A stretch of 64,000 bases of DNA from NCBI RefSeq assembly GCF_020736365.1, contig NZ_CP085988.1, positions 3,230,001 to 3,294,000 of the forward strand, in the 5' to 3' direction. Positions 35,952 through 42,730 of this stretch are shown here, piece by piece. The position numbers and the translations under genes are program-made. This DNA is from Clostridium sp. M62/1 (lineage in GTDB: Bacteria > Bacillota > Clostridia > Lachnospirales > Lachnospiraceae). The notes under the pieces were generated by a model. That model searched no databases, was not told where the DNA came from, and saw nothing but the letters and a program-made list of their open reading frames with translations. How positions within the stretch are numbered: position 1 is the first letter of the stretch; every line of letters begins with the position of its first letter.

Positions 35952-37943
35952 CTAATCTTCTTCCAGCTGAAGGAGCATTTTTTTGATCTCCACCATCCGG
36001 TCGCGGAGGATGGCCGCCTCCTCAAAATTCAGCTCTGCAGCTGCCTGGTGCATCTTCTTTGTCAGCTCCTTCACCAACTTCTTAAGCTCCTTCTCATCCA
36101 TAGACTCCGGATCCTTTGTCACCTCGTTGGTCACGCCCTCTGCCGCCTGGGAAATGCTGATCAGATCCCGTACTGCCTTTTTGATCGTCGTCGGCGTAAT
36201 ATGATGCTCCTCATTGTAGGCCTGCTGAATCTCTCTCCTCCTCTTCGTCTCCTCGATGGCGACGCGCATAGAATCGGTGATCGTGTCGGCATACATGATT
36301 ACATGCCCCTCGGAATTTCGCGCTGCCCTTCCCACAGTCTGGATCAGGGAAGTCTCTGAGCGCAGGAAGCCTTCCTTGTCTGCGTCGAGAATCGCCACCA
36401 GGGAGATTTCCGGTATATCCAGTCCCTCTCTCAGAAGGTTGATGCCCACCAGAACATCAAATACGTCAAGGCGCATATCACGGATGATCTCTGCCCTTTC
36501 CAGCGTGTCAATATCGGAGTGCAGATATTTCACGCGGATGCCGGCATCCCTCATATAATCCGTCAGATCCTCAGCCATCCGCTTCGTCAGAGTGGTGATG
36601 AGCACCTTTCCCTTCTTCTTGATTTCCCGATTGACCTCGCTGACCAGATCATCAATCTGCCCCTCCACCGGGCGCACATCAATGGGCGGATCGAGAAGGC
36701 CGGTGGGACGGATGATCTGCTCTGCCCGGAGCATTTCGTGGGCCTCCTCATAGTCAGAAGGAGTGGCAGAGACAAAGAGCATCTGATCGATTTTCGACTC
36801 GAACTCCTCAAAATTCAGAGGACGGTTATCGAGAGCTGACGGGAGGCGAAAGCCGTACTCCACCAGGGTCTTTTTTCTGGATCGGTCGCCGGCGTACATT
36901 CCCCTGATCTGGGGCAGGGTAATATGGGACTCGTCTATTATAATAAGGAAATCCTCCGGGAAATAGTCGATGAGGGTGCAGGGCGGCTCCCCCGGCGCAG
37001 AGCCCGTCAGGTGGCGGGAGTAGTTTTCAATTCCCGAGCAGAATCCTGTTTCCCGCATCATCTCCACATCGAAGTTGGTTCTCTCCAAGATGCGCTGCGC
37101 CTCAAGGAGCTTGTCCTCGCTCTTGAACCAGGCCACCTGCTCCTTGAGCTCTTCCAGAATGTTTTTAGCTGCCAGCTCCATCTTCTCTTTTGGAATGACA
37201 TAGTGGGACGCGGGGAAAATAGCCACATGTCCCAGCTGCGCCTTGATCTCCCCGGTCAGGGTATCGATCTCTGTAATCCGGTCCACCTCATCCCCGAAGA
37301 ATTCTATCCGGTAGGCATCGCCGCCGGAATAGGCGGGATAGATTTCCAGCACATCGCCGCGGACACGGAAAGAACCGCGCTTGAAATCCATGTCGTTTCT
37401 CGTGTACTGGATGTCGATGAGCTTGTGTATCACCTCATCCCTGTCCTTGATCATGCCGGGGCGCAGGGAGATCACCATCTCCTTATAGTCGATAGGGCTT
37501 CCCAGACCGTAGATGCAGGAGACAGAAGCCACGATAATGACATCGCTTCTCTCGGAGAGGGCTGCGGTAGCCGAGTGGCGAAGCTTATCGATCTCGTCAT
37601 TGATGGATGAGTCCTTTTCAATATAGGTGTCCGTGGACGGGACGTAAGCTTCGGGCTGGTAGTAGTCGTAGTAGGAGACAAAATACTCCACTGCATTGTT
37701 GGGAAAAAATTCCTTAAATTCACTGTAGAGCTGAGCCGCAAGGGTCTTATTGTGGGCAATGATCAGCGTAGGCTTGTTTAAGGCCTGGATGACGTTTGCC
37801 ATGGTGAATGTCTTGCCGGAGCCGGTAACGCCAAGCAGCGTTTCAAATTGATTTCCTTCTTTAAAGCCCTTAACCAGTTCGGCGATGGCCTGGGGCTGGT
37901 CGCCGGTGGGGGCGTATTCGGATACTAGTTCGAAATGGTCCAT
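35952..37943 (-). CDS. uvrB: UvrABC excinuclease subunit B
   Basis: This helicase-like damage verifier of nucleotide excision repair has 663 residues. Walker [14 protein letters not shown], beta-hairpin region [24 protein letters not shown] box [13 protein letters not shown], helicase motifs V-VI ([25 protein letters not shown]) and C-terminal UVR motif ([16 protein letters not shown]). It follows the NADAR gene by 26 bases on the same strand, so it may be partly co-transcribed with the ADP-ribosylation cassette. Confidence 0.95.
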
Positions 37944-37969: not shown

Positions 37970-38464
37970 CTATTTTTCTGTATTCTGGTTCTGCACAGAT
38001 ATTTCTGCCCTCACCTGCATCAAAATTTTCCCCAGAAGGTTCTGACCCTTCCATTTATCCGCACAAAATCGTTCCTCATCCTGCATAGAAAGACCAATCC
38101 CCCAGATTCGGTCTTTTACTGCACATTCTGCAATCATCTGTTCTCCTGTCTCCAGAAGTTTTTCAGCCAGTTCAGGATTTTGAAGAAATTTCTGGAGTAC
38201 CCCTTTATGGACGATTGCTTCTCTCTTCTCCCTCCAGATTTTTTCATCAAAATGCTGCACCATTCTGCCCAAAACCTTTATCTCGGCCACATCACCCGTC
38301 TCCAAAATCTTTTCCGCTGTCCTCTGATCCTGAAACAGAATTGCCTTTTTAAACATCATATACTGTTCCATTGATGAAAACGTGATTTCATCAACCGTAA
38401 ACGCGGAACGGTACCAATTACTCAAATACCCGTTTTGTTCTTCCGGATTATGAAAACATATCAA
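37970..38464 (-). CDS. NADAR-family ADP-ribose hydrolase (YbiA/RibX-like)
   Basis: The protein has 164 residues. It starts at TTG with GGGAGG eight bases upstream. NADAR features: FHNPEEQNGYLSNWY, FTVDEITFSSMEQYMMFKKA (the conserved Glu in the S-x-E-x-Y segment), and the C-terminal DRIWGIGLS. Members remove ADP-ribose or split glycosidic bonds; some NADAR domains act as antitoxins that strip ADP-ribose from guanine in DNA (established for DarT1-DarG1-type systems). Here it is the third gene after a DUF3990 ADP-ribosyltransferase-like gene, 18 bases after the middle gene, which suggests the reversing enzyme of the pair (inference). Confidence 0.85.
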   Translation of the reverse strand: MICFHNPEEQNGYLSNWYRSAFTVDEITFSSMEQYMMFKKAILFQDQRTAEKILETGDVAEIKVLGRMVQHFDEKIWREKREAIVHKGVLQKFLQNPELAEKLLETGEQMIAECAVKDRIWGIGLSMQDEERFCADKWKGQNLLGKILMQVRAEISVQNQNTEK

Positions 38465-38482
38465 TGGTTTTCCCTCCCAAAA

Positions 38483-38929
38483 TCATCTGTCCTCTTTTGG
38501 CTCTTTCAAACCGCATTGATTTCCAACTTTGTAGACGGCTGTCTGAAGATCAAGATCATGCAGTCCTGGATAACCTTCAAACATAAAATGAACCGGAATT
38601 AACTCCACTACATCTTTACTGGTAAGCTGGTAAGTCCATTGAAACAGCGCATAGAACTGCCCGATCCAGTTAGGTGCAAATCCGCCGTTAGACTCTCCTC
38701 TTTTGATTTCATAGTGATCATTTGAAAGAAAATAATGAAACAGCGATTCCGCATCCATGGTACATACATAAGCCTGTCCTTTATCAATCATTGCCCGGGT
38801 ATGACTTTTCATATATGTTTCAATAAAATTTTCGATGTCCATCTCCGGGTAATTATCCTGTGCATATTCAAACAGCTTTCCCTGATTTTCAACTACTTCT
38901 TCTAAATAACTTTTGCTGAACACGTCCAT
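38483..38929 (-). CDS. Unknown protein in ADP-ribosylation cassette
   Basis: The protein has 148 residues and is soluble and acidic. Segments: SYLEEVVENQGKLFEYAQ, FIETYMKSHTRAMIDKGQAY, NWIGQFYALFQWTYQLTSKD, FMFEGYPGLHDLDLQTAVYK. No catalytic motif is recognised. It lies between the DUF3990 gene (10-base gap) and the NADAR gene (18-base gap), so it is very likely part of the same functional unit, for example a helper or neutralising partner of the transferase. Confidence 0.7.
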   Translation of the reverse strand: MDVFSKSYLEEVVENQGKLFEYAQDNYPEMDIENFIETYMKSHTRAMIDKGQAYVCTMDAESLFHYFLSNDHYEIKRGESNGGFAPNWIGQFYALFQWTYQLTSKDVVELIPVHFMFEGYPGLHDLDLQTAVYKVGNQCGLKEPKEDR

Positions 38930-38939
38930 TTTCTACCTC

Positions 38940-39617
38940 TTATATCAATTTGCTGAATACCTTGTCTATCTTATTTTCATCGGAATTAATCAAAGCATAC
39001 ATGGCCTCTCTCGCCGTTCTGTCACGCTGAATATATTGAGGATTTGCTTTTGAAAATTCAACCTCCTTCAAAGCCGAATGCTCTTCTTTTAAGGCCTGAA
39101 ACGCTTTTTCTGATTTTAAGCAATACTGAATCCCCAGATCACCCAGTTTTAATAAATCTGGAAGAATACTGATATCCACTTCATCTCTGACAAAACATTT
39201 TGCAATATAAAAATAAGATGCATTTGCACGCCATCCCTTAATTACATCATAGTCCTCTGTAGGGATCTGGTACTTTTCAATAAACCTCGGTGCCAGCACT
39301 TTGTATCTTCGTCCCGTATCAGCATCGCGATGCTTCATTAGTTCCGCCAACCATGACAAAATATCACGTTTTTCAAAATCCAGTATTTTTAAATCACTGG
39401 TGTCTAATATGAATTTATGCACCCAACCATTCTTTTCTACCGGATTGCAGACAGACCACTCGGATGCCAATGCCGGGCTTTCCGTCAGATAAAATCCTCT
39501 GCCGTAATCGTGCTTATCGTTTCCCAATCCGTATGTAGGAACAACCTCTTTGTTCGGACTTCCGTGATATAAAATAATTTCCTTTTTATTGTTCTCCACT
39601 TTATATACCCCATTCAA
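38940..39617 (-). CDS. DUF3990 protein, ADP-ribosyltransferase-like
   Basis: The protein has about 225 residues. The N-terminal half matches DUF3990: IILYHGSPNKEV with the His of an H-Y type ADP-ribosyltransferase, HDYGRGFYLTES with the Tyr, ALASEWSVC, then FILDTSDLKILDF. A third catalytic residue cannot be assigned by eye. The start is uncertain: TTG at 39617 has no ribosome site, while GTG at 39599 has GGGG eight bases upstream. First gene of a three-gene unit with an unknown protein and a NADAR hydrolase. A toxin that ADP-ribosylates a cellular or phage target is inferred from family and neighbours. Confidence 0.75.
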   Translation of the reverse strand: MNGVYKVENNKKEIILYHGSPNKEVVPTYGLGNDKHDYGRGFYLTESPALASEWSVCNPVEKNGWVHKFILDTSDLKILDFEKRDILSWLAELMKHRDADTGRRYKVLAPRFIEKYQIPTEDYDVIKGWRANASYFYIAKCFVRDEVDISILPDLLKLGDLGIQYCLKSEKAFQALKEEHSALKEVEFSKANPQYIQRDRTAREAMYALINSDENKIDKVFSKLI

Positions 39618-39693
39618 ATTTTATAGGTTCTTCTTATATCGCTTTTCGTCATCAGTGTCCTAATCTCTTGAGGAGCTGTCATCTGTCTCGCTG

Positions 39694-39931
39694 CTACTCT
39701 TCATAAAGACATACCATCATTTTCTGATTCTTCCAGTATATTGACAAGTTTCTCCCTTGCCTTTGCCAGCAATGATAAAATTTCGGGGAATACTTGAAGC
39801 AGGCACAAAGCTCTCTCTCTGCTATAATGTCTCGTTTGCTTCTTTCTTCCTTGTATGTATCTTTGCGAATGAAGGTCACCTGTTTTACCTAAGCCACCTG
39901 TTTTATCTGCCCATACAGTCATATAGTACAC
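39694..39931 (-). pseudogene. Possible gene remnant upstream of the DUF3990 cassette
   Basis: Two overlapping minus frames each look protein-like over part of their length: one at its start (KDTYKEERSKRDIIAERELC), the other at its end (LLQVFPEILSLLAKAREKLV, ending in a Glu-rich tail). Joining them near 39800 gives one plausible sequence, so this may be a frameshifted short gene. No ribosome site is evident. The rest of 39618 to 40292 shows no gene. Confidence 0.25.
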
Positions 39932-40292
39932 GATTCTGGTGCATAAACAGCATCAAACATCTCAGAATTCACTTCGCAGATTCTGTAAGCCTCAGAACCT
40001 CGGCTCTTCGCTGCCAGATCGGCAATAGTTAATGCTCCCTTTAAGCATACCTGCTTTTCTGCCAGTCAGACAAATTATAGCATGAATAGTAAAAAAAGTA
40101 TAGCCAGCAAACAGAACATCTGTTCTTTTTTGCTGTACTTTTTCGTACAGAGCGCGCCAGCCCCGAAGGAATTTGGATTCCAGGATGTCCTGAGGGTATA
40201 CCTTTCCCTGCGCTCAGGGATTTTGACTATGCAGGGCTAATTTTTGCCTTTCCCGCAGTTGATTTTCCAGCCTTATAACACCAAAATTTCTC

Positions 40293-42494: not shown

Positions 42495-42560
42495 TATTTC
42501 ATTTATTTTTTTAGTTTTTATTGCTGTCTTATGTTTTTATTTCTGTCTTTTTATTCATCT

Positions 42561-42730
42561 TTCTATTTTCTGTTCAAACTTTCTATTTCCTATTCAAACT
42601 CTCTATTTTCTATTCACATCCTTCATTTTCTATTCAAACTCTCTATTTTCTATTCACACCCTTCATTTGCTATCCAAACTCTTTGTTTTCTATCCACACC
42701 CTTTATTTGCTGTTTAAACTCTTTGTTTCT
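42561..42730. repeat. 20-bp tandem repeat, about 8.5 copies
   Basis: Units follow the pattern CTCTATTTTCTATTCAAACT with an exact 20-base period. Copies alternate between endings CAAACT and CACACC, so a 40-base higher-order unit is visible from the third copy on. The strand asymmetry is strong (one strand nearly all pyrimidine). It lies upstream of the membrane protein promoter and downstream of the Ctp protease terminator. The period is not a multiple of three and the frames through it are not protein-like. Confidence 0.9.

Follow-up and report, generated by a model that had tools for sequence, protein, structure and literature searches.

A DUF3990-NADAR gene cassette upstream of uvrB: a candidate three-component toxin-antitoxin system matching PDC-M42

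ADP-ribosyltransferase (ART) toxins with dedicated antitoxins are the closest described counterparts of the locus examined here. In DarTG1 (DarT1-NADAR), a transferase is paired with a NADAR eraser under toxin-antitoxin (TA) logic, and in DarTG2 (DarT2-DarG) a single macrodomain protein removes the mark and also binds the toxin (PMC11543638). In YarT-YbiA, a known TA pair from myxobacteria, the NADAR neutralizes the YarT toxin (PMC11125620). We analyzed a three-gene cassette, A-B-C, directly in front of uvrB in Clostridium sp. M62/1, within a stretch of 64,000 nucleotides (contig NZ_CP085988.1, positions 3,230,001 to 3,294,000; here called the window). PADLOC-DB, a model library of known and candidate systems, lists such a trio as PDC-M42, with entries that carry no functional description.

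Based on comparative sequence analysis and structure models, we propose with a probability of roughly 0.6 that A-B-C is a three-component TA/anti-phage cassette, in which A would be the toxin, B a binder antitoxin, and C a second protector, and that its position at uvrB came about through an inserted element.

The cassette and its conservation

The features of the locus are listed below by window coordinates.

38940..39617, minus strand: gene A, DUF3990 protein with a predicted ADP-ribosyltransferase fold, putative toxin (PDC-M42A), open reading frame (ORF) of 225 aa
38483..38929, minus strand: gene B, predicted all-helical protein, putative antitoxin (PDC-M42B), 148 aa
37970..38464, minus strand: gene C, NADAR protein of the YbiA (Glu) type and predicted ADP-ribosyl hydrolase (PDC-M42C), 164 aa
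35952..37943, minus strand: uvrB, host gene and integration site in relatives, possibly co-transcribed with A-B-C
37671..37672, minus strand: point between bases 2 and 3 of uvrB codon 91, corresponding to the end of the match of a duplicated 5' fragment in seven relatives
40114..40125, no strand assigned: LexA/DinR-like SOS box GAACATCTGTTC (plus-strand letters), 508 bases upstream of the A ORF

The three genes are adjacent on one strand, as in PDC-M42, with gaps of 10 bases (A-B) and 18 bases (B-C), and 26 bases separate the C stop from the uvrB start. Operon membership of A-C is judged from this spacing. An earlier note on this DNA, made from the letters alone, had placed three minus-strand genes with these gaps before uvrB and had called A a DUF3990 protein and C a NADAR; the coordinates were confirmed, as were both families by Pfam (PF13151 at 6.7e-35 and NADAR at 1e-51). 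The same note had left the middle protein unrecognized and the module unassigned to any type it knew. Neither holds: no Pfam or NCBIfam family passed its curated cut-off for B, but B matches the PDC-M42B model (PDLC04642, 1.1e-66), and A (PDLC04641, 1.3e-115) and C (PDLC04643, 4.9e-81) match the other two PDC-M42 models. The true start of A is probably the GTG at 39599, which would give 219 aa. Versions of A with 219 aa occur at six loci (L037, L038, L039, L044, L046, and L047; L and G numbers are our handles for loci and genomes), and the two inspected, L037 and L044, both start at the equivalent codon.

The ratio of nonsynonymous to synonymous substitution rates (dN/dS) was 0.128 for B (window versus L031) and 0.112 and 0.128 for C (window versus L031 and L034). 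For A it was 0.091 between the relatives L034 and L037, the window's own A comparisons being saturated in dS. These low ratios argue that the trio is more than a chance grouping. The A-B-C gene order was found again in many genomes; the earlier note had said beforehand that a lack of co-occurrence elsewhere would count against its idea, and the three families do co-occur. The window genome carries a single copy of B, whose nearest named relatives (L031 at 88% identity and L032 at 87%) come from metagenome-assembled genomes of Candidatus Copromonas and uncultured Lachnospiraceae.

The partnership of A with B, and the place of C

Our survey set consisted of 397 related genomes of the family, of which 68 contained B homologues; A homologues were taken from single-pass searches. 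We examined a distant set of 40 stretches whose B is 16-24% identical to window B over an alignment of B proteins (alignment A1). A DUF3990 gene adjoins B in 32 of these 40 and a NADAR gene in none. Among the eight without A, the contig ends at L097, and at L103 an internal deletion has removed part of A.

The reverse test started from 90 A places found at E<=1e-20 in the 397 genomes, some of them partial, with two pieces of a broken A in G012 excluded. B had been matched next to 42 of these in the initial survey, and the remaining 48 were inspected at locus level. In 43 of the 48, the B profile found B directly downstream, often overlapping A by 17-41 bases (L192 being a partial B at a contig edge); at L155 and L197 B was also present on reading, two further loci are at contig ends, and one (L154) has no B. 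Overall, B adjoins A in 87 of 90 places, or 87 of the 88 that could be assessed, the pattern of type II TA systems, whose toxin gene is not seen without its antitoxin gene. Type II antitoxins are typically small domains that nearly always accompany the toxin gene and are often fused to a DNA-binding domain. A NADAR match was present at one of the 48 further loci (L192) and was weaker than 1e-15.

Decay of the cassette was scored by reading 34 close loci, with A counted as intact when its ORF reached at least 200 aa. By this measure 20 loci have an intact A and 7 a damaged one (L032, L041, L043, L052, L056, L057, and L059); A is absent from 4 (L035, L042, L058, and L063), and at the remaining 3 (L031, L045, and L051) it runs off the contig. 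B is intact at all 20 loci with intact A and at 9 of the 11 where A is damaged or absent, the exceptions being L058 and L063. In G035, unrelated sequence replaces the N-terminal ART half of A, and B and C are whole. This asymmetry is the pattern that would be expected if the toxin is lost before the antitoxin.

The AlphaFold2 model of B is all-helical, with nine helices and a mean predicted local distance difference test score (pLDDT) of 91.8. It had no match at E<=0.001 in the PDB or in a viral structure library, and a sequence search of solved structures gave one weak match for B (E 0.015) and none for A. Within alignment A1, 20 of the 43 members (window B included) have a C-terminal Cro/C1-type helix-turn-helix (HTH) domain, HTH_3, and 6 of the 43 have a weak DUF3791 match. 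HTH_3 matches also occur in 2 of 34 A proteins. The A proteins L069:3475-4329 and L073:3523-4386 have an N-terminal HTH-like extension and their B partners show none, which suggests that the DNA-binding domain has passed from one partner to the other.

C is less constant. Of the 34 close loci, 25 have C and 9 lack it, with L063 among the latter ending soon after B; C lies within 2.5 kb in 17 of 20 checked M42-like A places. Strong C homologues (E<=1e-50) number 33 in the 397 genomes: 25 with B adjacent, 2 at contig edges, and 6 without B. In a B tree of 54 rows with a midpoint root, C is missing from all seven rows of the outer lineage (Bacteroidales, Spirochaetota, Verrucomicrobiota, and Kiritimatiellota). 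C thus appears to be an addition to A-B, usually found with the pair and sometimes alone.

Because B outlives A, has HTH-bearing homologues, and occurs at 40 distant loci without any NADAR, B is most likely the antitoxin of A, and the NADAR would be a lineage-specific second protector. The inseparability of B from A, taken with its asymmetric survival and HTH-fused homologues, points to a dedicated antitoxin that probably restrains A by direct binding.

The alternative that survives best, although we consider it unlikely, gives the antitoxin role to the NADAR, following the DarT1-NADAR and YarT-YbiA examples, and makes B an accessory of A such as a substrate adaptor, an activator, or a phage sensor. 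NADAR antitoxins are described for two ART families (PMC11543638, PMC11125620), the catalytic positions are present in C, and C is intact at five loci where A is broken or missing (L032, L035, L041, L042, and L043). Against this, the distant B loci have no C at all and the 48 further A loci have a single case, whereas B stands at nearly every A place and antitoxin-like HTH domains recur in its family. The A-B pairs without C argue against the NADAR as sole antitoxin of A; since such pairs are common, something besides C must restrain A in the wider family.

The assignment of A as a toxin draws on its fold, its conserved residues, and a relative. An AlphaFold2 model of A, built from 24 aligned sequences (pLDDT 85.7), was compared with the PDB; the best 50 of 179 matches were all PARP1/PARP2 catalytic domains, the top one at E 3.8e-3, probability 0.99, and template modeling (TM) score 0.37. 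DUF3990 belongs to the Pfam ART clan (PMC7955679), and when Pfam matches to A were admitted up to E 1 they comprised DUF3990 and a weak ART-PolyVal match, with none to the DarT family. An ART fold for A is thus weakly supported, by matches that are all of one kind. Four residues are invariant in all 34 aligned A proteins: His18 (in YHGS), Asp37, Tyr43 (in GFYLT), and Gln164 (in GIQYCLK). From these we infer an H-Y-Q active site (H18, Y43, and Q164), with Q164 taken as the third residue from strand order; ARTs with an H-Y-[E/D/Q] triad have been described as a class (PMC11125620). A Serratia Rhs effector ends in a DUF3990 domain (PMC4524185), which fits a toxin role for A.

To locate the ADP-ribose site of C, we aligned it to the Phytophthora NADAR structure 8bau, whose ADP-ribose contacts are described in PMC11543638. 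The nine C residues at contact positions (Glu33, Lys40, Lys63, Arg67, Trp77, Arg81, Glu113, Asp118, and Trp121) are each invariant in 17 of 17 C proteins. Glu113 aligns with Glu125 of 8bau, placing C in the YbiA type; DarT1-linked (BC4488-type) NADARs have a catalytic Asp (PMC11543638). Four tested E. coli and phage NADAR types and a YarT-linked YbiA hydrolyze guanine-ADP-ribose (guanine-ADPr) in vitro (PMC11125620). Given the conserved residues and these characterized NADARs, C would act as an eraser that removes ADP-ribose from the product of A, most plausibly guanine in DNA or RNA.

An element at uvrB codon 91 in relatives

In seven relatives, a second copy of the uvrB 5' end stops matching after base 272, where codon 91 changes from TAC to TAG (genomes L034, L037, L044/G401, G035, G350, G028, and G388; loci L034, L037, L044/L228, L143, L145, L144, and L140). 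The junction is followed by TGTGCCGG and a conserved left end, about 150 bp long, behind which the cargo differs; further left ends are at L246-L250, and 8 of 378 family genomes contain the left end. Elements are arranged as uvrB'-[left end-cargo]-full uvrB and can follow one another in tandem, as in G035 (A*-B-C-uvrB'-[RhuM, ATPase]-uvrB). The window genus offers two comparisons: in G401, A-B-C is accompanied by the left end, RhuM, and both copies of uvrB, whereas in G222 uvrB is uninterrupted and the cassette is missing. Three of seven genomes picked out by the junction pattern (G081, G286, and G260) were not counted as insertions, as there was no uvrB in the stretch examined. The left end is not always at uvrB, since a second match in G350 (L251) lies elsewhere.

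Within one genome, the two uvrB 5' copies share 77-96% DNA identity in five comparisons (262/272, 244/272, 258/272, and 236/272 bases, and 127/164 in G028, where 164 bases were available); a sixth, L247, was out of frame and was left out. This degree of identity fits an element that brings a borrowed uvrB 5' end, with divergence after duplication as the alternative.

According to PADLOC, the cargo behind the left end or beside uvrB copies includes AriAB (G181), LmuA/LmuB-like proteins (G104), AbiTii (G350), PDC-M28C (G035), and RhuM (PDC-S05). From the model names, we take AriAB to be PARIS, LmuA/LmuB to be Lamassu, and JetA/JetC to be Wadjet. JetA and JetC stand beside duplicated uvrB fragments in G397, also of the window genus; this is a weaker case, as a search for the left-end motif in G397 did not find it. 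We noticed no integrase or recombinase in the small uvrB elements, although no family search was aimed at one. RhuM recurs with varied cargo, by PF13310 or PDC-S05 match at L228:1314-1868, L143:10374-11378, L229:10996-11988, and L247:10157-11167 and by look alone at L246:7669-8697, L248, L249, and L252. RhuM might belong to the core of the element itself and could even serve as its recombination factor. Among the open PMC titles listed, none dealt with uvrB as an integration or defense hotspot.

All 15 uvrB-linked B proteins fall within one strongly supported clade of 20 rows in the 54-row tree. Both ends of the element are visible in relatives, and in the window the cassette and its upstream SOS box would be all that remains. 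From these relatives, we infer that the window cassette arrived by the uvrB element. The segment at 39640-40070, which separates A from the SOS box, exceeds its counterpart in the close relative L032 by about 350 bases and had no convincing match in sequence comparisons; it is possibly an old insertion scar.

The SOS box itself is one match in the window against a chance mean of 0.22 per window. A relaxed form of the box has a background of 0.02 per kb in the sequences examined; 6 of 22 relatives have it no more than 500 bp from uvrB, where about 0.2 would be expected, but four of the six are from the window genus, and one of the 22 (L201) itself bears the cassette. The window box is possibly the ancestral uvrB promoter box. 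The relaxed box is also found within 1.5 kb before the cassette at 6 of 16 loci, namely the window and 5 of 15 others, one of them with C only. No terminator-like site was found on the minus strand from A to uvrB, so the SOS promoter of uvrB itself may drive the cassette.

These observations bear on a second alternative, that A-B-C is a repair operon, SOS-co-regulated with uvrB, in which nucleotide excision repair (NER) and the NADAR clear ADP-ribosylated bases. Its attractions are the open path from A into uvrB, the SOS-type boxes upstream of several cassettes, the recruitment of UvrB to DarT lesions and the aid that NER gives to survival there (PMC7003065), and the presence of E. coli ybiA in a LexA-controlled operon (PMC11125620). 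We set it aside as the primary meaning, and think it improbable, because the uvrB linkage belongs to one B clade and the same point in uvrB takes other defense-family cargo elsewhere, with uvrB' duplications that show insertion. The earlier note had pointed to the position before uvrB, a DNA repair gene; a mobile-element insertion, seen in relatives, explains that position better than a repair function does. Insertion first and SOS co-regulation afterwards are compatible readings, and it is plausible that any NER link would follow from insertion and not cause it. As the cassette is cargo of the codon 91 element in close relatives, its placement next to uvrB is probably not functional.

A proposed mechanism and its relation to known systems

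In the TA reading that we favor, A would be an H-Y-Q mono-ADP-ribosyltransferase toxin, with its fold taken from the model and its activity predicted from its residues. B would be a dedicated antitoxin that holds A inactive, probably through direct binding, and C, in part of the family, a second protector that hydrolyzes ADP-ribose off the product of A; binding and erasing, joined in DarG2, would here be split between B and C. Infection or damage would free A from B, A would modify nucleic acid, and phage replication or the cell would stop, with C limiting self-damage from freed A. The lineage would travel as cargo of a defense-carrying element that inserts at codon 91 of uvrB and brings a new 5' end for the gene, which would account for the cassette lying before uvrB.

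Several findings weigh against this proposal. The A model has no PDB match at E<=0.001, and Gln164, which was put at the classical Glu position by strand order and not by measured superposition, stands where classical ARTs have Glu, so A could be weak or inactive. Window B has no HTH match in the Pfam scan, and the only full-length A found without B, that of L154, stands beside a calcineurin-like phosphoesterase (L154:1580-2128). NADAR genes of the C type also stand alone, at the 6 of 33 strong places without B and at L252:3199-3762 (G329), directly before uvrB with a RhuM-like gene and neither A nor B, so C may also serve a purpose independent of the pair. The presence of NADAR requires six changes on the B tree, which has only a midpoint root, so a single gain followed by losses is a guess. 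At uvrB, 5 of the 20 clade rows (L004, L038, L041, L045, and L063) show no uvrB in the sequence covered; this is partly due to contig ends, and at L041 a fragment is visible by DNA comparison and the junction motif alone. DNA, pattern, and translated searches of the window and its genome found no uvrB duplicate and no left end, and the insertion route in the window is therefore drawn from relatives only. Phage and plasmid copies are very rare, with B in 1 of 50,697 phage and 1 of 72,556 plasmid records and A in 3 phage records; of 40 pattern matches in viral contigs, none was confirmed.

With these points counted, the TA or defense module of the earlier note stands as a likely one in its transferase-fold toxin candidate, its eraser, and its conserved third protein; the NADAR is not the core partner, as A-B occurs without it in the wider family. 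Its transferase-like view of A gained an ART-fold model, though with weak PDB matches and a likely third residue of Gln, not Glu.

A last alternative, that A modifies a soluble metabolite or protein (by abortive NAD+ consumption or through a signaling nucleotide) and the NADAR removes the product, draws on NADARs that act on riboflavin intermediates and are proposed to act on low-molecular-weight ADP-ribose derivatives (PMC9503650), but seems very improbable to us given that tested NADARs, the YarT-linked YbiA included, hydrolyze guanine-ADPr (PMC11125620) and that we saw no separate signal-effector gene adjoining the cassette.

Two observations stand apart. Calcineurin-like phosphoesterases are also cargo of two uvrB elements (L246:7093-7659 and L247:9453-10025), identified at L247 by Pfam match and at L246, as at L154, by look; such a protein is possibly an alternative partner or eraser for A. 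Elsewhere in the window, at 42548-42728, is a tandem array with units of 20/40 bases, the 20-base unit repeating about 7-8 times; several of its reading frames are open, and the flanking genes were named by eye as threonine-aldolase-like and S41-peptidase-like.

More broadly, DUF3990 with B could be a widespread, undescribed ART TA family with an H-Y-Q site and a new all-helical antitoxin fold, in which NADAR was recruited in one part and one lineage was spread by undescribed uvrB codon 91 defense elements and can come under the uvrB SOS promoter; we give this wider claim even odds. PDC-M42, catalogued but unexplained, would thereby become a testable mechanism: which partner restrains the transferase, and what the eraser does. 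Codon 91 of uvrB is a probable defense hotspot in this bacterial family and a place to seek further anti-phage systems, and the uvrB neighborhood should, as a caution, not be read as a repair function.

Among known systems, PDC-M42 has the same three proteins in the same combination as the window. Our analysis adds to it an A-B core that also occurs where C is missing, a B family with HTH fusions, and the element at uvrB. The open PMC literature gave no paper pairing NADAR with DUF3990, which by itself appears in 4 papers, and among the 20 of 131 papers listed for PDC-M42, DS-32, or a NADAR anti-phage family none was on the subject judging by its title. DS-32 protein 2 represents a curated anti-phage NADAR family (NCBIfam NF053876, "NADAR family anti-phage protein"); C was tried as a member and rejected (52.6 bits versus a cut-off of 240). 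For the element, the staphylococcal cassette chromosome arrays at rlmH offer a parallel, as tandem cargo elements that enter one gene and supply the gene end. The uvrB element differs in replacing the 5' end, and no recombinase gene was noticed in it, although no family search was made.

The nearest TA comparisons are with the ART systems. YarT-YbiA, like A with C, sets an H-Y-[E/D/Q] ART beside a YbiA-type (Glu) NADAR, but it has two genes and no B, and YarT, with its conserved Glu, falls among the Rhs HYD1 toxins, whereas window A is a DUF3990 protein with Gln. DarTG1 resembles the cassette in its transferase and NADAR eraser, but has a DarT-family toxin and a BC4488-type NADAR with Asp, whereas the window has no DarT match and has Glu113 in C. 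The two roles that a single protein fills in DarTG2 are apparently shared in the window by two proteins, one of them a NADAR. The cassette would thus be a variant of the ART TA systems with a separate binder-type partner, B, and a separate eraser, C.

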